From: Burkholderiales bacterium PBB6
Lineage (GTDB): Bacteria > Pseudomonadota > Gammaproteobacteria > Burkholderiales > Burkholderiaceae_C
Direction of reading: 5' to 3'
DNA: 64,000 bases
Assembly: GCA_002255925.1 (NCBI GenBank)
Contig: NKIH01000001.1
Location: 620,001-684,000 of the forward strand
Each line of letters starts with the position of its first letter. Position 1 is the stretch's first letter. Below are positions 14-10,082 of the stretch, in pieces. Below the pieces are notes generated by a model. The model ran no database searches. It saw only the letters and a program-made list of their open reading frames with translations, and was not told where the DNA came from. Position numbers and translations under genes: made by a program.

Positions 14-907
14 ATGGCGCGGCGGCAGCTTCGCGGTGAAAGGGCGGTGGCTGTGCTGACTGCCCTGTTCGCCTTGTGCTGCGCCTTGCTGCTTGCCGCG
101 CCCTCGGCACGCGCCATGGACACCCTCGACGACCGCTCGTTGTCGGGTGTGACGGGCCGCGACGGCGTGAACTTCAACCTGCACGGTTTTGCGCTGTCGG
201 GCACTGCGTCGCTGACCTACACCGCGCCGAACGGCCACAGCCTGCAGCTGTCGGACTTCGCGATCTCGCGCAGCGACGACATCGACCAACTCTTCACTGA
301 CCCCTACAGCCTGCAGGTGCGACAGCGCGCTGGCGGGGCTGACTTGATCGACATTGCCTTTCCCCTCAACGCCGCGGGCCTGGCGCGCTGGCAGTTCGCC
401 GCCGATGTCTTCACCACCGCCGATGGCCAGACCATCCAGGGCGGCGCGCTGGTGCTGCAGGACCTGGCGTTTTACAGCGGCGGCCTGCAGATCAGCACGC
501 CGGCGCAGGCCAACACCGAGGGCGTGGCCTTTGGCCTGGGGCTGAACCTGCAACTCGGCGCGCTGGCGCTGCGCCCCCAGGGCCGCAACAGCACCGCGGG
601 CGAGATGCGCCTCAGCGGCCTGAAGCTGGCCGGTGTGCGCGAAGACGGCAGCTGGTCCGGCCAACCCTGGGCGCTGGCTGATGTGCGCCAGCAACCCGGC
701 CTGCTGCACGCCATCACCGATGCCAAGGGCCCGGCGCTGCAGCTGCTGGTGGACTGGCCCACCGCGGGTGCCACGGCGCCCCTGGCCGGCTTGTCGATCG
801 ACAACGTGCGCTTCGGGGTGGATGCCTCGGCGGTGGACCTGGGCGGTGCCCGCATCGGTTCGATGCAGATCCAGTTTCTCGACGTGCGGCTGCGCCCGTC
901 GAACTGA
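14..907 (+). CDS. Secreted DUF6160/FilA-like protein with LDD...VTGRDG motif
   Basis: Exported protein of about 297 residues, function unknown. Residues 1-34 form a Sec signal peptide (Arg-rich start, long Leu/Ala core, ARA cleavage site). The motif LDDRSLSGVTGRDG follows directly at 38-51. The rest is Gly/Ala/Leu-rich with alternating polar and hydrophobic residues, suggesting beta structure. I chose ATG 14 because AGGGG at 1-5 is 8 nt upstream; GTG at 8 would be too close. The motif recalls DUF6160 and the proteins labelled 'putative pilus system protein FilA' in Acinetobacter; that link is from memory. It is followed 7 bp later by a smaller motif-bearing gene and then a C39 peptidase, so a shared processing or assembly pathway is plausible. 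The window starts just upstream, so a preceding operon member may exist. Confidence 0.75.
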   Translation: MARRQLRGERAVAVLTALFALCCALLLAAPSARAMDTLDDRSLSGVTGRDGVNFNLHGFALSGTASLTYTAPNGHSLQLSDFAISRSDDIDQLFTDPYSLQVRQRAGGADLIDIAFPLNAAGLARWQFAADVFTTADGQTIQGGALVLQDLAFYSGGLQISTPAQANTEGVAFGLGLNLQLGALALRPQGRNSTAGEMRLSGLKLAGVREDGSWSGQPWALADVRQQPGLLHAITDAKGPALQLLVDWPTAGATAPLAGLSIDNVRFGVDASAVDLGGARIGSMQIQFLDVRLRPSN

Positions 908-914
908 GGCGATC

Positions 915-1430
915 GTGGTCGGCGTGTCTGCGTTGTTCTTCGGTGCCCGGTTGCGTCGCCATGCCCTCGGCCTCGGCTTGGCGGCGCTGGGCTTGCTGGC
1001 GCTGCTCGCCGCCTGCCCGGCGTGTGCCGCCACGCAGGCGCTGGACGACGATGCGCTCGCTGGCGTGAGCGGTGCCGGCATCTCGCTCAGTGGCCACCTG
1101 GTGCTCAACGGCGGCCTGCTGGACGGCCAGCCGCTGCGCCCGAACCTGCAGGCCGGTTTCCAGAACGACGGCGTGACCACCTGGCTGGTGCTGCACGGCC
1201 TGGGCGGCGTGATGGACTGGCACACGCTGACGCTGAATGTGCGCACCCGCGCCAACGGCAGTGATTATCTCGACATCGGCCTGCCGCAGTGGGTGTCCTT
1301 CGATCAATTCGGTTTTCGGGCATTGGCTGCGCAGGCCGACCCGAACGCCCCGGTGGCTGCCCATTACGGCGGCCTGTTGTTGAACGGCACGCTGCAGATG
1401 CAGGGCCATGTCTATCTTTGGGCGCGTTGA
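915..1430 (+). CDS. Small secreted protein with LDDDALAGVSGAG motif
   Basis: Exported protein of about 171 residues, no known function. GTG 915 is taken as start because GAGG overlapping the previous stop lies 5 nt upstream; GTG 924 is the alternative. An ORF in this frame continues upstream inside the preceding gene but has no sensible N-terminus. Residues 1-39 look like a signal peptide with Ala/Leu core and CAA cleavage region. The motif LDDDALAGVSGAG (43-55) follows, matching the upstream gene in position and spacing. The remainder is short and beta-rich (LVLNGGLLDG, LLLNGTLQMQG). Paralogy to the preceding gene is inferred from architecture, since overall sequence similarity is weak. It sits 21 bp before the C39 peptidase gene, probably in one transcript. 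Confidence 0.65.
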   Translation: MVGVSALFFGARLRRHALGLGLAALGLLALLAACPACAATQALDDDALAGVSGAGISLSGHLVLNGGLLDGQPLRPNLQAGFQNDGVTTWLVLHGLGGVMDWHTLTLNVRTRANGSDYLDIGLPQWVSFDQFGFRALAAQADPNAPVAAHYGGLLLNGTLQMQGHVYLWAR

Positions 1431-1451
1431 GCGCAGGCCGGTCACCTGATC

Positions 1452-2219
1452 ATGTGGATGTTGTTTCTCGGCCCCCTGGCCACCTTGATCGCCGGCTCCG
1501 CCGTGGTCTCCCAGAACGAGCCGGTCGAGCAGCCGCCCGAGCAGCTGATGCTGCCGATGCAGGTGGTGGCGGGTGGCTCGGCCGGTGAGCCTGTGCGCAT
1601 CAAGCCGCTGTCGGAGTTCAAGTACCAGCACATCGTCCGCCAGGCCTATGACTACAGCTGCGGCTCGGCCGCGCTGACCACGGTGCTGCGCTATCACCTG
1701 GGTTATGACGTGACCGAGCAGCAGGCGATGGAAGGCATGCTGGCCTTTGGCGAGCGCGAGAAGATCGTCGAGCGCCGCGGCTTCTCGCTGCTCGACATGA
1801 AGCGTTACGCCGCCTCGCTGGGCAGCAACAGCGCGGGCTTCAAGGCCGAGATCAGTGACCTGCGCAAGCTTGACCAGCCGGCCATCGTGCCGATCGACTT
1901 CGCCGGCTTCAAGCATTTCGTGGTGTTTCGCGGCATTCGTGACGAGAAGGTCTTTCTCGCCGATCCGTCCGCCGGCCACATCGTGTTTTCTGTCAGCGAG
2001 TTCGAAGCCCTCTGGGATCGCAACACGCTGTTCCTCATCTATCCCGCCAAAGACCGCCCTCCGGTGGCGAGCCAGCTGGCGCTCTCCGACCGCGAACTGG
2101 GCGTGATCGACCCTGACCTGGTGCGCGAGCCTGCCCGGCTGCGCCCGCCCGAACGCAACGAGGCCCTGGAGCGCGCTGTCCAGACCGGCCTTGGCAACCT
2201 CTTCTTCCGACGTCCATGA
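1452..2219 (+). CDS. C39-family (bacteriocin-processing type) cysteine peptidase, stand-alone
   Basis: Papain-like C39 peptidase of 255 residues without an ABC transporter. C39 domains normally cleave leader peptides after double-glycine-type sites. The catalytic Cys is C70 in YDYSCGSAALTTVL; the His is H155 in FKHFVVFRG; the Asp is D171 in FLADPS. This order and spacing fit the family. Residues 1-20 are hydrophobic (signal peptide or anchor), so the domain probably works in the periplasm. That differs from C39 domains of bacteriocin exporters, which are cytoplasmic. After about residue 200 comes a Pro/Arg/Glu-rich tail. The stop overlaps the next start by 4 bp (ATGA), indicating translational coupling to the beta-barrel gene. 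The two upstream secreted proteins carry double-glycine-like motifs and are candidate substrates (inference). It resembles Acinetobacter peptidases annotated FilB. Confidence 0.85.
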   Translation: MWMLFLGPLATLIAGSAVVSQNEPVEQPPEQLMLPMQVVAGGSAGEPVRIKPLSEFKYQHIVRQAYDYSCGSAALTTVLRYHLGYDVTEQQAMEGMLAFGEREKIVERRGFSLLDMKRYAASLGSNSAGFKAEISDLRKLDQPAIVPIDFAGFKHFVVFRGIRDEKVFLADPSAGHIVFSVSEFEALWDRNTLFLIYPAKDRPPVASQLALSDRELGVIDPDLVREPARLRPPERNEALERAVQTGLGNLFFRRP

Positions 2220-3268
2220 CCATGACCACCACCCGCCACCCCGCCCGCCACCCCGCCCACAACACCGTTGTTCTGTCCCTCGGCCGCATCACCGTGGCCG
2301 CCCTGCTGGCCGCCGCCGCCGGCGCCGCGCATGCGCAATCAACCCCGGCACCCGACGCGGCCCGCGAAGCCCTGAAGGCCCGCGATGGCGACGTCAGCCA
2401 GGCCAGCCTGCTGAAGGAAACGCTGAGCCAGGCCGAGAAGCAGTACTCGCTGCTGAAGACCGGCAAGCTGTCGCTGAACTACGACCTCGGTTATGCGTAC
2501 GTTGGCACCGAGACGCTGAACGTGAAGTTCACCGACAGCACGCTGACGCTGTTCAACATCCAGAACACGCGCTCACACACCCTCACCAACACCATCTCGG
2601 CCGACTACGGCCTGCGCGACAACCTGACGGTGACGGGCAGCCTGCCGCTGATCAGCCGTTACTCGCAGTCCGACACCTTCGGCGGCCTGTCGCACGGCCT
2701 GGGTGACCTGGCCGTGGGCGCGCGGTATCAGCCCTTCGAGCTCTCACGCGATGGCGCCGCCATCACCACCACCGCCACGCTGCGCCTGCCCACCGGCCGC
2801 AGCCCGTTCAACACCATCGCCAGCCAGAACCTGGCCACCGGCTCCGGCTTCACCAGCCTGACGCTGGGCCTGAACGCCTCGAAGGTGCTGGACCCGGTCG
2901 CGCTCTTCGGCTCGGTCAACACCACGCTGGCGCTGCCGGCCAAGCATCTGAGCCAGGAGCGCGACGGCGTCACGCTGAGCGAGGTCCGCCCGGGCCCGAG
3001 CATCGGCTTCGGCCTGGGCTTTGCGTATGCGCTGTCGTACAGCGTGTCGACCACTATTTCGCTGCAGGAAACCATTTCCAGCCGCACCACGCTGCGCTTC
3101 AAGGACGGCACGTCGTCACGCACCGCCACCCAGACCTCGGCGAGCCTGAACATGGGCCTGGGCGTGCGTGTGTCTCCCAAGACCACGGTGAACCTGACGG
3201 CCGGCCTTGGCCTGACGTCCGACTCGCCGGACTTCACCCTGTCGATGAACATGCCGCTGGCGTTCTGA
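2216..3268 (+). CDS. Outer-membrane beta-barrel protein (transporter/phenol MetA-pathway-like)
   Basis: Predicted outer-membrane barrel of 350 residues. It has a long N-terminus with a signal peptide ending near AAGAAHAQ (residue ~41), then a short Ala/Glu/Lys-rich periplasmic helix, LLKETLSQAEKQYSLLKTGK. From about residue 82 it shows alternating amphipathic strands typical of a barrel (SLNYDLGYAYVG, ADYGLRDNLTVTGSLPL, LGDLAVGARY), ending in Phe (MNMPLAF), the usual C-terminal signature for BAM insertion. Strand style resembles the 'MetA-pathway of phenol degradation' barrel family, though substrate cannot be read from sequence. The start ATG overlaps the C39 peptidase stop by 4 bp; ATG 2222 is an alternative. 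It is followed 10 bp later by a FadL-type porin gene. Confidence 0.75.
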   Translation: MTMTTTRHPARHPAHNTVVLSLGRITVAALLAAAAGAAHAQSTPAPDAAREALKARDGDVSQASLLKETLSQAEKQYSLLKTGKLSLNYDLGYAYVGTETLNVKFTDSTLTLFNIQNTRSHTLTNTISADYGLRDNLTVTGSLPLISRYSQSDTFGGLSHGLGDLAVGARYQPFELSRDGAAITTTATLRLPTGRSPFNTIASQNLATGSGFTSLTLGLNASKVLDPVALFGSVNTTLALPAKHLSQERDGVTLSEVRPGPSIGFGLGFAYALSYSVSTTISLQETISSRTTLRFKDGTSSRTATQTSASLNMGLGVRVSPKTTVNLTAGLGLTSDSPDFTLSMNMPLAF

Positions 3269-3278
3269 CGAGGCTGTG

Positions 3279-4898
3279 ATGTTGCGACCCCTGCGTCCCC
3301 CGGGCGTGCTGCCGTGTGTGCTGTTGTGTGTACTCACGCTAGCCGCCTCCGCACCCGCCCAAGCCGCCTTGACCGACAACCTGGCCACCAGCCCGGTGGC
3401 CATGTCGCTGGGCAATGCGGTGACGGCCGATCCGTCGGGGCACGACGCCGTCCACTTCAACCCGGCCGGCCTGACGCGCCTGAGCGGCAAGGTGAAATCC
3501 GACACCTTCTTCGGCGCCAAGCTGCGGGTGTTCAGCACCTTCCACCAGCCCGACGGCTTCGACATCGGGGGCTTCAAGGAAGACCCGGTGAACGGTTTGA
3601 CGTCGAGTGGCAATGCCCAGTCGATCTTCCTGCCCATCGTCGGCTCGCCCAAGGCGCGGCTGCCGGTGGCAGTGGCGGCGGGCCTGGGCTTCTCGTTCAA
3701 CGAGCCCGGCTCGCCGTGGACCTTCGCCACATCCACCTACGTGCCGCAGGCTGTGGGCATCGACCGCACGCGTGATCCGGACGATCCGGCCCGTTTCCAG
3801 GGCCGCAAGGTGGTGATCCAGCGGCTGGTGTATGCCTCGCCGTCGGTGGCCTACAAGTTCTCCGACACGCTGAGCATCGGTGTGGGCGTGCCGATCGCGC
3901 ACCAGGGCTTTGCGCTGGACACCGACATGCGCTTCCCCAACCAGCTCATCGGCATCATGGGCGAGTTGCAGAACGCCTGGTGCGGCGACAACGGCAACCC
4001 GGTGGACACGTTTTTCCTCGGCCTCTGCGGTGGTGGCAAGGACGGGCGACTGAACCCCTTCAAGCGCGCCGGCAACATGAGCTTCGAGGCCACCGCGCCA
4101 GCCGACCCGACGCTGAACATCGGCGTGCTCTGGGAGCCCGCCGACTGGCTGGGCCTGGGCGCCGTGTACCAGGGCGGCTCGAAGACGGTGCTGACCGGCC
4201 GATACCACTTCCATGCCGATCCGATGTTCCGCAAGTTCGTCGAGGGCATGTACGCCTCGCTGCTGGGCCCGGTGGCAGGGGCCACCTTTGGTTTCCCGAC
4301 CGAGATTCCGGAGGACCAGGGCGGCAACATGACCATGGTGCTGCCGTTCCCTGCGCACGTGCAGCTGGGTGCCAAGATCAAGCCGCACCCGCGCGTGCAG
4401 CTGAATGTGGATGCGATGTGGACCGACTGGGGCCAGTGGAACCAGCTGACCTTCCAGTTCGACCAGAACGTCAAGCTGCTGGAAATGGCGCGGTTGTTCG
4501 GCCAGGCCGACCCGAGCAAGCTGGTGATTCCGCGCGGCTACAAAAGCCGCTGGCATTACGGCGTGGGCCTGCAGGTGGCGGTCACGCCCAAGCTCAAGCT
4601 GCGCATGGGTTATGAGCCGCGCAAGAGCTCGGTGCCCACCGACAAGATCGACCTGATCGCGCCGATGCCCGACCTGACCATCCGCAGCGTGGGCGCCAGC
4701 TACACCGCCGACAGCGGCACCCGCATCGACTTCGGTGCCAGCGTCACCAACGGCCACTACGACGTGCCGGCCAATACCAGCTGCAACCTCAACTGCACCA
4801 ACTTCTTCAACGTCATCTACAACCCGTACGCCGGGCTGGACGTCAGCGGCGGCATCCGCATCCGCTACGCCGGAGTGACGATCACCAAGCCTTTTTAG
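3279..4898 (+). CDS. OmpP1/FadL-family outer membrane protein
   Basis: Outer-membrane protein of 539 residues related to FadL/OmpP1 (hydrophobic-compound or fatty-acid channels). A signal peptide ends near APAQA (residue ~29). It is followed by the characteristic N-terminal segment with TSPVAMSLGNAVTADPSG and HFNPAGLTRL; the Asn-Pro-Ala-Gly element is a FadL hallmark. The body has alternating strands and large loops, one containing Cys pairs (WCGDNG...GLCGGG). It ends in ITKPF with terminal Phe. ATG 3279 is preferred over GTG 3276, which is immediately adjacent. Larger than E. coli FadL (about 446 residues) because of extended loops. Fil-like loci in other bacteria also carry OmpP1/FadL-type members, as I recall, so it may be a structural part of that system rather than a fatty-acid importer. 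Confidence 0.8.
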   Translation: MLRPLRPPGVLPCVLLCVLTLAASAPAQAALTDNLATSPVAMSLGNAVTADPSGHDAVHFNPAGLTRLSGKVKSDTFFGAKLRVFSTFHQPDGFDIGGFKEDPVNGLTSSGNAQSIFLPIVGSPKARLPVAVAAGLGFSFNEPGSPWTFATSTYVPQAVGIDRTRDPDDPARFQGRKVVIQRLVYASPSVAYKFSDTLSIGVGVPIAHQGFALDTDMRFPNQLIGIMGELQNAWCGDNGNPVDTFFLGLCGGGKDGRLNPFKRAGNMSFEATAPADPTLNIGVLWEPADWLGLGAVYQGGSKTVLTGRYHFHADPMFRKFVEGMYASLLGPVAGATFGFPTEIPEDQGGNMTMVLPFPAHVQLGAKIKPHPRVQLNVDAMWTDWGQWNQLTFQFDQNVKLLEMARLFGQADPSKLVIPRGYKSRWHYGVGLQVAVTPKLKLRMGYEPRKSSVPTDKIDLIAPMPDLTIRSVGASYTADSGTRIDFGASVTNGHYDVPANTSCNLNCTNFFNVIYNPYAGLDVSGGIRIRYAGVTITKPF

Positions 4899-4920
4899 AG
4901 CCTTCCTGAAGGACCTCGCC

Positions 4921-5532
4921 GTGCCCTTGTCTTTTCTCATTTCCCGCCTGGCCCCAACCCGTGGCCGCACGATCTTGGCGGTGGCCTGCTTGATGACGAG
5001 CACCTTGCTGCAGGCGCAAACCGCACCTGCAGCGCCGGCCCAGGCCGCCGTTGCGGCGGTGCCGCCCGCCAAGCAGGTACTGATCGACCGCATCCTGGCG
5101 CTGTGGCACCCCGAAGCGGTGGCCATGGTGATGGTGCAGCGCCCGGCGGCCGATGCCGTGCAGCAGGCGCGCATCGCGCTGCAGGGGCGGGTGTCGGCCG
5201 AGAAACGCGACGCCACCGTGAAGGACATCGCCGTGGACGCACAGCGCTATGTGGACGAGGCCACGCCGCTGGCGCAGGCGGCGGTGCGCCGGCAGTTGCC
5301 GCGCACCGTGGTTCCGATGTTGGCCGAGAACTTCTCTGAGGACGAGCTGCGCCAGCTGCTGGCGATGCTGGAATCCCCGGTCAAGCAGAAGTTCGAGCAA
5401 TGGGTGCCGAAGCTGGAGCGGGCGCTGGGTGAAAAGACCGCCGAAGATGCCGGCGCCACCATCCAGCCCAAGCTCGACACCATGAAGCAGGCGATTGCCG
5501 TGAAGCTGCGCGCTGCGTCGATGGTGCCCTGA
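4921..5532 (+). CDS. DUF2059 domain-containing secreted protein
   Basis: Exported protein of 203 residues starting at GTG 4921, with AAGGA 8 nt upstream. Residues 1-36 form a signal peptide (RTILAVACLMTSTLLQAQ) followed by an Ala/Pro-rich linker to about residue 45. The rest is helical: AKQVLIDRILAL, then YVDEATPLAQAAVRRQLPRTVVPMLAENFSEDELRQLLAMLESPVKQKF. The sequence (PxLAENFSxDELRQLxxxLESPxxxKF) is the diagnostic core of DUF2059, a helical periplasmic domain of unknown function. The gene is 22 bp after the FadL-like gene and ends 32 bp before a convergent gene, so it probably closes the operon. No catalytic residues are recognisable. Confidence 0.75.
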   Translation: MPLSFLISRLAPTRGRTILAVACLMTSTLLQAQTAPAAPAQAAVAAVPPAKQVLIDRILALWHPEAVAMVMVQRPAADAVQQARIALQGRVSAEKRDATVKDIAVDAQRYVDEATPLAQAAVRRQLPRTVVPMLAENFSEDELRQLLAMLESPVKQKFEQWVPKLERALGEKTAEDAGATIQPKLDTMKQAIAVKLRAASMVP

Positions 5533-5564
5533 GGCCTCAGGCCACCGTCATCCAGCGGCAGCGT

Positions 5565-6083
5565 TCAGCTCTTCTTGCCGGCGGATGGCGGCAGCGGCAG
5601 GCCGAACAAGGGCAGGCCGAGCACCGGCATGGCCAGCGGCAGCGCAGGCACGAACGCCAGGGTGGCCGCCAGCGTCACCGTGGCCGTCACGCTGGCCTGC
5701 ACGCCCTGCGTAGCGGCAAATCCGTGCAGGGCCAGCGCCTGGCGTTCCAGCCTTGCGGCCTCCTGGGCAGCGCGGGCGGGGTCATTCAGCAGGTCGGCCG
5801 TGTTGCTCCGCGCTGGAAGGCTCTCAAGGGTGTGCAGCGCCTGGCCTTGGGCCAGCGCGATGAGTGCGGCGGGGTCGAGGCCCGCGCCGCTGACCTGCGC
5901 CAATTCGAGGTCATTGAGGCGTTCCGCGCTACGGGCCGGTGGGCTGGCCAGCAGGCACGCGGCGGCGCCCAGCAGGGGCAGGCACCAGAGCAGGCGTGCG
6001 GAAGAGGGGGTCGGGGTAGATGCAAGCGCGGGCAGGGCGCTGGCCCGGCGCATGGCAGGGACGGAGCGGGAAGGGGTGGTCAT
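5565..6083 (-). CDS. Secreted protein with LNDLELAQVSGAG motif, unknown function
   Basis: Protein of 172 residues on the minus strand, convergent with the preceding operon. A long N-terminus (1-30, Ser/Pro/Ala/Arg-rich) precedes a hydrophobic core (LLWCLPLLGAAACLLA) and an ARSA cleavage site near residue 53. Directly after comes LNDLELAQVSGAG (56-68), the same post-signal motif as the two genes at the start of the window. It is closest of the three to the class II bacteriocin double-glycine leader pattern (Leu at -12, Glu at -8, Leu at -7, Val at -4, Gly-Ala at -2/-1). The middle is helical and Ala/Gln-rich. The C-terminus is hydrophobic (LAATLAFVPALPLAMPVLGLPLFGLPLPP), perhaps membrane-associating. 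No family recognised with certainty; the gene call rests on signal peptide, motif and locus context. Confidence 0.6.
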   Translation of the reverse strand: MTTPSRSVPAMRRASALPALASTPTPSSARLLWCLPLLGAAACLLASPPARSAERLNDLELAQVSGAGLDPAALIALAQGQALHTLESLPARSNTADLLNDPARAAQEAARLERQALALHGFAATQGVQASVTATVTLAATLAFVPALPLAMPVLGLPLFGLPLPPSAGKKS

Positions 6084-6550: not shown

Positions 6551-7150
6551 ATGCTGTTGATGATCGACAACTACGATTCCTTCACTTTCAACCTGGTCCA
6601 GTACTTCTCTGAGCTGGGTGAAGAGGTGCGGGTGTTCCGCAACGACGAAATCACGCTGGAGGGCATTGCCGCGCTGCAGCCCGACCAGCTGGTGCTCTCT
6701 CCGGGGCCGTGCTCGCCCGCCGAAGCCGGCATCTGCGTGCCGGCCATCCAGGCCTTCACCGGCAAGCTGCCCATCCTCGGCGTGTGCCTGGGCCACCAGA
6801 GCATCGGCGCGGCCCTGGGTGGCAAGATCGTCCGGGCGCGCACCCAGATGCACGGCAAGACCAGCGAGATCCAGGCCGACGGGCAGGGCGTGTACGCCGG
6901 CCTGCCGGAACGCTTCACGGTGATCCGCTACCACTCGCTGGTGATCGAGGAGGCCACCATGCCCGACGTGCTGCAGGTCACCTCGCGCTCGGAAGACGGT
7001 GAAGTCATGGGCGTGCGCCACCGCGAACTGGCCGGCACCGCCACGCCGCTGGAGGGGGTGCAGTACCACCCGGAGTCGATCCTGAGTGAGCACGGCCATG
7101 CGCTGCTGCGCAACTTCCTGGCGATGAGCCGCGTGGGGGGGGCCGCATGA
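6551..7150 (+). CDS. trpG: Anthranilate synthase component II (glutamine amidotransferase)
   Basis: Glutaminase subunit that supplies ammonia to TrpE for anthranilate synthesis, the first committed step of tryptophan biosynthesis. It has 199 residues, usual for the family. Features: N-terminal [19 protein letters not shown]; oxyanion region [12 protein letters not shown]; nucleophile C79 in [10 protein letters not shown]; His173/Glu175 of the triad in VQYHPES. ATG 6551 is chosen because family members begin at this segment and AGGTG lies just upstream; the longer open frame is not conserved-looking. The stop overlaps the ltaE start (ATGA at 7147-7150). TrpG may also serve PabB for folate synthesis, as in other bacteria with a single trpG. 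trpE is not directly upstream. Confidence 0.95.
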
Positions 7151-8223
7151 CCATCGACCTGCGCAGCGATACCGTCACCCGCCCCACCGCGGCCATGCGC
7201 GAAGCCATGCTGCGCGCCGAGGTGGGCGACGACGTGTTTGGCGATGACCCCACGGTGAAGGCGCTGCAGACCCGCCTGGCGGAGGCGCTGGGCTTCGAGG
7301 CGGCACTCTTCATGCCGACCGGCACGCAGAGCAACCTGTGCGCCTTGCTGGCCCATTGCCAGCGTGGCGATGAATACATCGTTGGCCAGCTGGCCCACAC
7401 CTACCGCTATGAAGGCGGTGGTGCGGCGGTGCTGGGCAGCATCCAGCCGCAGCCGCTGGCCCAGGCCGCTGACGGCACTATGGCGCTGGCCGACATCGCT
7501 GCTGCCATCAAGCCCGACGACCCGCATTTCGCGCGTACCCGCCTGCTGTGCCTGGAGAACACCTGGAACGGCCACCCGATGCCGCAGGCCTGGCTGCTGG
7601 CCGCCACTGACCTGGCGCGCCAGCACGACCTGGCCGCGCATCTGGACGGCGCCCGGGTCTTCAACGCTGCGGCGCACCTGGCTGGCTCCGGCGGCGATGT
7701 GTGGGCGGCTGCCCGCGAGATCGTCCGGCCGTTTGACAGCGTGTCCGTCTGCCTGAGCAAAGGCCTGGGCGCACCCGTCGGCTCGGTGCTGTGCGGCTCG
7801 GCCGCGCTGATCAAGCAGGCACACCGGGTGCGCAAGATGGTGGGCGGCGGCATGCGGCAGGTGGGCGTGCTGGCTGCGGCCGGCTTGCATGCGCTCGACC
7901 ACCACGTGAACCGCCTGGCCGATGACCACGCGCTGGCCCAGCGCCTGGCCAGCGGCCTGCAGGGCGTGCCCGGCATCAGCGTGCGCTCGGCCCAGACCAA
8001 CATCGTGTTCGTTGACGTGGCCGACGGCCGTGGCGCTGATCTGCTGGCGTATCTGGCCGGGCAGGGCATCCTCGCCACCGGCCTGATCGGCCTGCGCTTC
8101 GTCACCCACCTGGATGTGGACGCCGCGGGCATCGACCGCACCGTGGCGGCTGTGCGCGAGTTCTTCGCTGCGCCGGCTTCAACTGCCCCCGCCGCCCCGG
8201 CCGTGTCGCGCGCCCCCTATTGA
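7147..8223 (+). CDS. ltaE: Low-specificity L-threonine aldolase
   Basis: PLP enzyme (fold type I, 358 residues) that cleaves L-threonine or L-allo-threonine to glycine and acetaldehyde; related enzymes act on phenylserine-type substrates. Visible signatures: [12 protein letters not shown] at the N-terminus; [36 protein letters not shown] with PLP-binding Asp167 and Arg170; Schiff-base Lys205 in [15 protein letters not shown]. The last 15 or so residues ([15 protein letters not shown]) are a variable tail. It overlaps trpG by 4 bp and is followed 19 bp later by trpD, so it is co-transcribed with the trp genes. That placement is unusual; glycine/acetaldehyde metabolism has no obvious link to tryptophan synthesis. 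Confidence 0.93.
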
Positions 8224-8242
8224 TTGCCCTGGAGACCTGGGA

Positions 8243-9280
8243 ATGACCATCAGCAATTCCGACGCCCTGACCCGCGTCATCGACCACCGCGAAATCTTCC
8301 ACGACGAGATGCTGGCCCTGATGCGCCGCATCATGAGCGGCGAGATGTCGCCGGTGATGATCGCCGCGCTGTCCATCGGCCTGCGGGTGAAGAAGGAATC
8401 GATCGGCGAGATTGCCGCCGCGGCCCAGGTAATGCGCGAGTTCGCGACGCCGGTGCCGGTGGCCGACCGCCGCGGCCTGGTCGACATCGTCGGCACTGGC
8501 GGTGACAGCTCGCACACCTTCAACATCTCCACCGCATCGACCTTCGTGGCCGCTGCGGCGGGCGCGCGTGTGGCCAAGCATGGTGGGCGCAGCGTGTCTT
8601 CCACCAGCGGCAGCGCCGACGTGATGGAAGCGCTGGGCGCCTACATCATGCTCACGCCCGAGCAGGTGGCCACGTGTCTGGAGCAGACCGGCATCGCCTT
8701 CATGTTCGCCCCGAACCACCACGCCTCGATGAAGCACGCGGCCCCGGTGCGCAAGGAGCTGGGTGTGCGCACGATCTTCAACATCCTCGGCCCGCTGACC
8801 AACCCGGCCGGCGCACCGAACCAGTTGATGGGCGTGTTCCACCCGGACCTCGTGGGCATCCAGGTTCGGGTGCTGCAGCGCCTGGGCTCGGAGCACGTCA
8901 TGGTGGTGCACGGCATGAACGGCATGGACGAGATCTCGCTGTCGGGCGAAACCTTGGTCGGTGAGCTGAAGGACGGCCAGGTCCAGGAATACATGGTCCA
9001 CCCGAGCGACTTCGGCCTGCCGGTGTACGACGCCCGCGTGCTGCGCGTGGCGAACCAGCAGGAATCGGTGCAGTGCATCCAGCGGGTGCTGGCCAATGAA
9101 GACGGCCCGGTGCGCGACATCGTGCTGCTGAATGCCGGCGCTGCGCTGTATTGCGCCGGCAATGCCGCCACGGTGACCGAGGGCGTGCGCCAGGCGCGTG
9201 AGGCCGTGGCCTCGGGCGCTGCGGCGGCCAAGCTCAGCCAGTTCGTGGCTGCGACCCAGCAATTCAATCCGGCTGCCTGA
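8243..9280 (+). CDS. trpD: Anthranilate phosphoribosyltransferase
   Basis: Transfers phosphoribose from PRPP to anthranilate, the second step of the tryptophan pathway. It has 345 residues. The helical N-terminal domain ([13 protein letters not shown], about 1-70) is followed by the PRPP-binding [14 protein letters not shown] loop (84-97) and [21 protein letters not shown] (112 on). The anthranilate-site segment [12 protein letters not shown] and [15 protein letters not shown] are also present. ATG 8243 fits the family N-terminus and has GGAGACCTGGG as a Shine-Dalgarno region; the frame is open further upstream inside ltaE without homology. This protein is TrpD alone and is not fused to TrpG. 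It is followed 4 bp later by trpC. Confidence 0.96.
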
Positions 9281-9284
9281 AACC

Positions 9285-10082
9285 ATGAGCACGACCCCCG
9301 ACATCCTCCAGCGCATCGTCGCCGTCAAGCACCAGGAAGTGGCGGCTGACCGCGTGGGCCGGCCGTTGCCAGCACTGCTGGCACAGGCTCAGGCGCAAAC
9401 GCCCACGCGCGGCTTCGAGGCCGCCTTGCGCGCCAAGGTGGCGGCAGGCCAGGCCGCGGTCATCGCCGAGATCAAGAAGGCCAGCCCGAGCAAGGGCGTG
9501 ATGCGTGACCCGTTTGTGCCGGCCGACATCGCGCGCAGCTACGCCGCCCACGGCGCCGCCTGCCTGAGCGTGCTGACGGACGAGCAGTTCTTTCAGGGCG
9601 CCACCGCCTACCTGCAGCAGGCACGTGCCGCCTGCACGCTGCCGGTGCTGCGCAAGGACTTCATGGTCGACGAGTACCAGGTGGTGGATGCCCGCGCCAT
9701 GGGCGCAGACTGCATCCTGCTGATCGCCGCCTGCCTGGACGACGCGCAGATGGCGCACCTGGAAGCCACCGCGTTGGAGATGGGCATGGACGTGCTGGTC
9801 GAGGTGCACGACGGCGAAGAGCTGGACCGCGCGCTGCGCCTGAAGACGCCACTGCTGGGCATCAACAACCGCAATCTGCGCACCTTTGACGTGACGCTGG
9901 ACACGACCCTTGGCCTGCTGAACCGGGTGCCGTCCAGCAAGCTGCTGGTCACCGAATCGGGCATCCTCGGTGCGGAAGACGTTCAGCGCATGCGTGCGGC
10001 GGATGTGCATGCCTTCCTCGTCGGTGAAGCGTTCATGCGCGCGCCGGACCCGGGCGTGGCGCTGGCTGGCCTGTTCGGCTGA
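9285..10082 (+). CDS. trpC: Indole-3-glycerol-phosphate synthase
   Basis: (beta/alpha)8-barrel enzyme of 265 residues that closes the indole ring from CdRP with loss of CO2 and water. Catalytic motifs are visible: E62 and K64 in [12 protein letters not shown]124 in [33 protein letters not shown] with phosphate-binding LVGEAFMRA near the C-terminus. It is monofunctional (no TrpF fusion), as usual outside enterics. The start ATG 9285 lies 4 bp after the trpD stop, implying coupling; the longer open frame inside trpD is a shadow. The next gene, ung, begins 12 bp downstream. Confidence 0.96.

Follow-up and report, generated by a model that had tools for sequence, protein, structure and literature searches.

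A locus at the beginning of the analysed DNA of Burkholderiales bacterium PBB6 encodes a free-standing C39 peptidase together with secreted proteins that share a short motif behind their signal peptides. The window, that is, the whole stretch of 64,000 nucleotides under analysis (G000:C24:620001-684000 in whole-contig coordinates), starts inside the operon, and genes upstream of it are given in coordinates of L003, which equal the window position plus 8000 (verified; Table 1). The order of the genes is A1, A2, A3, A4, the C39 peptidase, a FilC/FapF-like barrel, a FadL-like barrel, a DUF2059-like protein and the convergent A5. Five of them encode motif-bearing signal-peptide proteins, three in the window (A3, A4 and A5) and two directly upstream (A1 and A2), and all five carry [LI]-[DN]-D-x2-L-x2-V-x-G-[QRA] soon after a signal-peptide-like stretch. 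The family PF19657 (DUF6160) matches A3, with the motif falling inside the matched segment. Homologues of FilB, FilC and FilD are adjacent same-strand genes in one operon and stand behind FilA-like proteins, as in the Fil system of Acinetobacter (NCBIfam NF050077-NF050080: FilA, FilB C39, FilC, FilD; "putative pilus system"), although the window locus scores far under the curated cut-offs and has several extra motif proteins. Because all four Fil scores lie under the cut-offs that NCBI curated for these "exception" models (Table 1), the locus is called Fil-like and its proteins are not given Fil protein names; FilB, FilC and FilD below stand for the homologues.

Table 1. Features of the Fil-like locus (window positions unless L003 is given).
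Feature	Position	Strand	Description
A1	L003:6404-7036		motif protein with IDDSTLSTVSGQ, just upstream of the window
A2	L003:7085-8011		motif protein with LDDAALAGVWGQ, just upstream of the window
A3	14..907	+	297 aa, signal peptide and motif, predicted all-beta mature domain; DUF6160 33.2 bits (cut-off 27); FilA model 28.8 bits (curated cut-off 220)
A3 leader motif LDDRSLSGVTGR	125..160	+	residues 38-49; predicted cut before D50
A4	915..1430	+	171 aa, signal peptide and motif; weak DUF6160 match, 15.5 bits
A4 leader motif LDDDALAGVSGA	1041..1076	+	residues 43-54
FilB-like free-standing C39 peptidase	1452..2219	+	255 aa, own N-terminal signal or anchor; C70, H155, D171; NF050078 230.7 bits (curated cut-off 475), E 2e-68
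FilB C-terminal leader-like segment LSDRELGVIDPD	2082..2117	+	no Gly at -2/-1; proposed pseudo-leader
FilC-like outer-membrane channel, FapF (amyloid pore) relative	2216..3268	+	NF050079 275.8 bits (curated cut-off 630), E 7e-82; FapF NF058560 73.7 bits
FilD-like FadL/OmpP1-family barrel	3276..4898	+	NF050080 417.2 bits (curated cut-off 970), E 8e-125; PF03349 152.5 bits
DUF2059-like protein	4921..5532	+	PF09832 23.4 bits, slightly below cut-off 23.6
A5	5565..6083	-	172 aa, convergent motif protein; no DUF6160 match; motif profile E 0.014
A5 leader motif LNDLELAQVSGA	5883..5918	-	residues 56-67

The peptidase had been described as a C39 enzyme with an intact C70/H155/D171 triad, an assignment borne out by a PF03412 match at 74.4 bits (cut-off 22) that holds the full Q/C/H/D catalytic set and by the invariance of Q64, C70, H155 and D171 in 51 aligned FilB proteins, namely the window protein and 50 of the 78 recovered with a strict pattern that already includes the Cys. 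All 30 loci that escaped this pattern likewise have motifs with the Q, Cys, His and Asp. In an AlphaFold 2 (AF2) model compared with PDB entries, FilB is predicted to have the C39 fold and to share its catalytic residues with C39 peptidases. No fusion to an ATP-binding cassette (ABC) transporter was found in the 255-residue FilB, which is a free-standing protein. Against the FapD model it reaches 124.7 bits (cut-off 330) and thus stays below the FapD equivalog level.

The three motifs reported for the window proteins in the preliminary description were found in the translation at the places given there, each preceded by a hydrophobic, signal-peptide-like stretch; signal peptides and likely signal-peptidase sites were judged by eye from that stretch. 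Double-glycine leaders have their conserved positions at -12/-7/-4/-2, and the Fil-type motif follows this frame. Its frequency was assessed in the best 80 of 577 confirmed FilB loci, whose named genomes include Ideonella, Roseateles, Massilia, Duganella, Rugamonas, Pseudomonas, Marinobacter and others. Within the first 60 residues past the signal, 179 of 3,086 crude six-frame signal-peptide-like open reading frames (ORFs) carry the motif, at 57 of the 80 loci, as against a mean of 5.3 and a maximum of 14 in 200 shuffles and two hits in reversed sequences. Pure chance was rejected as the origin of the motif on the strength of the shuffles, the reversal and the co-occurrence with FilB.

A1 is identical in 173 of 173 residues (100%) to the chain of PDB entry 9xfv, a 25-chain "bacteria pilus (like)" assembly entitled "Pilus-like-alpha, a bacteria pilus-like structure obtained from a Karst cave" and released on 2026-02-18, so the window genome or a close relative is the likely source of the structure. 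The chain begins at D38 of the A1 precursor, right behind IDDSTLSTVSGQ (VSGQ, followed by DGV), and ends at the C-terminal His210 (aligned range 38 to 210). The likely signal-peptidase site of A1 (SASA, followed by MTAIDD; by eye) lies 15 residues ahead of this start, and the boundary between -1 and +1 had been set from the leader frame before the structure was known. A mature protein starting at the Sec site, the result that the preliminary description named as speaking against trimming, is not seen for this one subunit, and the "envelope structure" it expected as the product is matched by A1 as a subunit of the pilus-like 9xfv. A FilA-family profile returned no convincing PDB entry besides 9xfv. 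For A3, the AF2 model (mean predicted local distance difference test score, pLDDT, 85.5) places residues 31-50 in blocks at 57-59 and an all-beta domain from residue 52 onward (later blocks 78-97), and this model is consistent with a poorly ordered leader ahead of a folded subunit. D50 and G51 are invariant across 30 aligned A3 relatives.

The inheritance of the two components was followed with NF050078 for FilB and with DUF6160 (PF19657) for the motif family. The scores against NF050078 have a bimodal distribution, and the gap in it (223 versus 133 bits in Burkholderiales, 211 versus 137 in the Gammaproteobacteria class sample and 161 versus 123 in Pseudomonadales) was used to part FilB from FapD-like C39 proteins. 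FilB occurs in 5 of 399 Burkholderiales genomes, and DUF6160 above its cut-off in those five and in G159; at E 0.01, weak single matches in G063 and G213 bring the FilB-negative genomes with DUF6160 to three. In the class sample DUF6160 is confined to the six FilB-positive genomes (of 369), and in Pseudomonadales it is found in the 23 FilB-positive genomes (of 194) and in G765 and G818. The three samples overlap (G000 and G405 are shared, others possibly); the positives are drawn from several families in each wide sample, and Fisher values ignore phylogeny. In the 16 genomes of the window's genus, a motif profile built from 40 signal-plus-motif N-termini reached E < 1e-3 in 6/6 FilB-positive versus 0/10 FilB-negative genomes, the weaker hits in the latter lying mostly over the signal-peptide part. 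Likewise, the hit of 7.7e-4 in the distant genome G007, from a 34-genome search with the motif profile, covers profile positions 2-25 only, which belong to the signal. In each of the genera g446 and g478, a genome without FilB and without the motif stands beside at least one that has the two. The co-occurrence of motif and stand-alone C39 genes anticipated earlier is thus near perfect in four genome sets. A tie of the VxG-type motif to any free-standing C39 was rejected, since FapD-like genomes lack DUF6160 (one weak hit, G063).

The window's genome contains five motif proteins as far as found, all at the Fil-like locus. The 26 scored DUF6160 matches of G535 and G647 are, without exception, on a contig other than that of filB or more than 37 kb away from it, and 21 of the 26 span just the signal-plus-motif part of the model. 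Judged by its distribution, with motif proteins far from filB in some genomes, the motif would resemble a sorting signal, and several scattered substrates served by one peptidase would be the pattern of sortase or PEP-CTERM systems. As described in the available part of the PEP-CTERM/exosortase paper (PMC1569441), that system likewise has a short sorting signal that is scattered over the genome and occurs together with one protein family; the fil motif differs in being N-terminal rather than C-terminal, in its unrelated enzyme and in lacking a membrane anchor in the signal.

A control set of 49 FapD-like C39 loci contains the FilB-type motif in only 2 of 422 ORFs (shuffled mean 0.6). These loci carry a sister motif, [VIL]-x-[DE and others]-x2-L-x3-R-G-[GRK and others], whose spacing is identical. 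It is present in 38 of the 422 ORFs and at 34 of the 49 loci, against a mean of 0.5 and at most 3 in shuffled sequences and none in reversed ones; a looser pattern that admits chance hits finds it at 39 of 49. In the genuine fap operon L276, where FapD scores 441 bits (cut-off 330), FapE 346 (250) and FapA 190 (110), FapE has IELKDQELATLRGR directly behind its signal, followed by YVMPG. The sister motif is, from its sequence, a candidate recognition site of FapD. According to the available text of Rouse et al. 2017, catalysis by FapD is essential and its target is unclear, and peptides from the N-terminal stretch of FapE (about 70 residues) were not detected (PMC5557850); the accessible part of a 2025 review states that FapD is "thought to" process the FapE N-terminus (PMC12822426). 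The FapE motif fits this suspected processing and offers a likely place for the cut. Besides FapE (L276:3137-3904), many small secreted neighbours of FapD-like C39 proteins (L015-L039, L073-L096) read L-x3-R-G-[GRK], in many cases with F or Y as the next residue. At L278:2488-7870 a FapD-like operon is tandem-duplicated, the two very similar copies comprising an asparagine-rich secreted protein, a small motif protein, the C39 peptidase and an RGG-motif protein.

It is likely, on the co-occurrence and the start of 9xfv, that Fil-like subunits are trimmed at the motif after Sec export and that FilB makes the cut. Sec would export the precursors and signal peptidase would take off the signal, which would leave a second short leader, [LIM]-x-D-x2-L-x2-V-x-G-[QRAGS], at the new N-terminus. 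FilB, as a periplasmic FapD-related C39 peptidase, would read the hydrophobic frame at -12/-7/-4 together with the Gly at -2 and cut after -1. The trimmed subunits would then cross the outer membrane, probably via the FapF-like FilC barrel, and A1 would polymerise into the pilus-like structure; the parts given to FilC and FilD and the order of the steps are presumed in this scheme. The two-step maturation put forward in the preliminary description is supported as to Sec export and later trimming, and its choice of FilB over another protease as the cutter is what we infer.

Several observations weigh against this account. Among 122 unique fil-locus motifs (collected with a pattern requiring Gly at -2), the -1 residue is Q in 62, R in 34, G in 12, A in 9, S in 3 and another residue in 2. 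Q or R thus stands at -1 in 96 of the 122 and G, A or S in 24, and the C39 enzymes studied so far generally call for G, A or S there, so Q/R is atypical. With Gln and Arg commonest before the cut, the term "double-glycine" used in the preliminary description fits the frame alone, and cleavage would in many cases come after one of these two residues. The -1 residue varies even among relatives of one protein: A4-type motifs end in VSGG (in Rugamonas, Duganella and others), VSGR, VSGA or VSGQ, while in A3 relatives the last residue is R, G, S or Q, a few having Ala at -2 (VHAR). Conservation extends past the cut, with a common "DG" at +1/+2. The 9xfv entry may lack a model for a flexible leader that is retained, as its length and residue range suggest that the modelled part alone was deposited. 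No motif protein was found with a relaxed pattern in the fetched flanks of 13 of the 80 FilB loci, and a pattern hit is absent from 11 of 91 DUF6160 loci. FilB loci show the RG pattern as well, and above chance, in 36 of 3,086 ORFs and at 29 of 80 loci (mean of 6.1 and no more than 13 after shuffling). V-R-G motifs there fit the VxG and the RG pattern alike. The two motif types are therefore not absolutely separated. Among the genomes, G159 (a 680-contig draft) has six motif matches and no FilB match even at E 1, G818 has one weak motif hit and no FilB on direct check, G765 (75% complete) has three motif hits and merely a 26-bit fragment of FilB, G063 and G213 have their single weak motif-family hits without FilB, and G905, at 65% completeness, combines a cut-off FilB match (87.7 bits) with a lack of DUF6160.

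Some of these points would suit a motif that is retained as a docking or targeting tag, recognised by the FilC pore, a chaperone or FilB as a non-cutting receptor, with the leader just unmodelled in the pilus-like structure. The atypical Q/R at -1 and the conserved D and G at +1 and +2 can be read in this way, as can the leader-like tail of FilB itself, which would then share a docking signal with the motif proteins. Certain C39-like domains do work without catalysis, according to the available part of one paper (PMC5557850). A retained tag, although the chief alternative, is nonetheless unlikely: the catalytic residues are kept in 51/51 aligned FilB proteins and the 30 others, FapD depends on its active-site Cys, 9xfv starts exactly at +1, and the ordered domain of the A3 model begins right behind the motif.

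Slightly less probable still is a cut at the motif by some other periplasmic or surface protease, FilB processing something else such as FilC. The suggestion that FapD also cuts the FapF linker (PMC5557850, available part) and the G159 motif proteins with no FilB detected lend themselves to this explanation, but it fits poorly with a co-inheritance with FilB that is near perfect down to absences within genera, with a motif frame that is the C39 leader frame, and with a prevailing motif type that follows the C39 subfamily (VxG[QR] with FilB, RG[GRK] with FapD-like). That the motif is non-functional, being the shared N-terminus of a homologous DUF6160 family that travels in one operon, was already disfavoured and is very improbable. 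A1-A4 are partly homologous via PF19657, and single-operon inheritance would yield co-occurrence; however, the motif proteins of G535 and G647 are spread over many contigs and mostly match DUF6160 over signal plus motif alone, A5 has no DUF6160 match, and an equally spaced sister motif accompanies FapD-like C39.

The trimming of Fil-like subunits by FilB may be one case of something wider. We put it at slightly better than even that free-standing periplasmic C39 peptidases serve a general post-Sec sorting and maturation route, in which removal of a second, bacteriocin-style leader licenses outer-membrane export or assembly. The route would comprise two or more pairs of enzyme and cognate leader: FilB would act on L-x-D-x2-L-x2-V-x-G-[QR], and FapD on [VL]-x-D-x2-L-x3-R-G-[GRK], with FapE as its long-sought substrate. 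In some genomes one FilB would serve a dozen scattered substrates or more, as with sortases and exosortases, and FilB would be restrained by a C-terminal leader mimic without the scissile Gly. This last element stems from the tail of FilB, which is the protein's best-scoring window for the leader profile in 47/51 FilB proteins, with the pattern present in the other 30 too. Of the 51 tails, which are related and not independent, 34 lie above the 99th percentile of shuffles, which reach 13.0 at most. Scored with the FapD motif profile, only 2/55 FapD tails exceed the shuffled 99th percentile, and in view of this near-negative result the leader-like tail is claimed for FilB alone. The AF2 model is only moderately confident about the tail (70 for block 211-220, 55 thereafter) and has no helix in the leader-like segment. 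From its sequence, the segment is possibly an autoinhibitory leader mimic without the glycine.

The preliminary description knew of no demonstrated processing of this kind. The periplasmic C39 peptidase FapD, needed for fibre export, is already known (PMC5557850), and FilB is therefore not the first periplasmic C39 of its kind. The Pseudomonas Fap functional amyloid system (FapA-F) resembles the window locus in having an exported C39 peptidase beside a FapF-like pore and, in FapE, the sister motif. It differs in the type of motif and in the FapD score of the window FilB, and the FapB/FapC amyloid repeat subunits have no NCBIfam match among the seven window proteins scanned, a set without A1 and A2. 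As for Fil itself, the accessible text of PMC3498257 reports that FilA belongs to the fimbriae of Acinetobacter sp. Tol 5; a supplementary legend there mentions its Edman identification and credits earlier work, and that text gives no description of a leader or processing of Acinetobacter Fil proteins. No prior description of Fil-type leader processing was found in the available portions of the open-licence PMC literature. The outline of C39 leader processing moved to the periplasm is thus known from FapD, and what is new here is the proposed recognition signature, the exact N-terminus for one subunit and the scattered substrate set. With a leader signature proposed for both the FilB and the FapD branch and a deposited structure that gives the exact first residue of one subunit, the recognition rule, the enzyme and the scattered substrates become directly testable, and the motif allows surface-filament and biofilm proteins to be listed from genomes.

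Peptidase-containing ABC transporters (PCAT1, ComA, LahT) and double-glycine leaders share with FilB and its motif the C39 fold, the catalytic residues and the leader frame, whereas FilB has no fused transporter, is placed after Sec export and meets mostly Q/R at -1. The one other PF03412 match in the genome (L001, G000:C24:265639-266025) lies 356 kb away in an 806-residue frame that is probably such a transporter, carrying a second C39 domain. A bacteriocin or type I secretion reading of the locus was rejected on the Sec-type signals, the free-standing peptidase and the distance of this sole other match.

The Fil-like locus is accompanied by an AraC-type regulator gene (L003:5097-6152) and is flanked by trpE (L003:3438-4913) and by a run of trpG, a threonine-aldolase-like gene, trpD and trpC (window about 6566-10082), as read from the sequence. 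An aromatic-x-His ending at the very C-terminus, by a pattern that also admits I/V and one extra residue, occurs in 111 of 281 unique motif proteins, for instance FWMWAH in A1 and VKVWGH in a Pseudomonas FilA-like protein, and is perhaps an assembly or outer-membrane signal.

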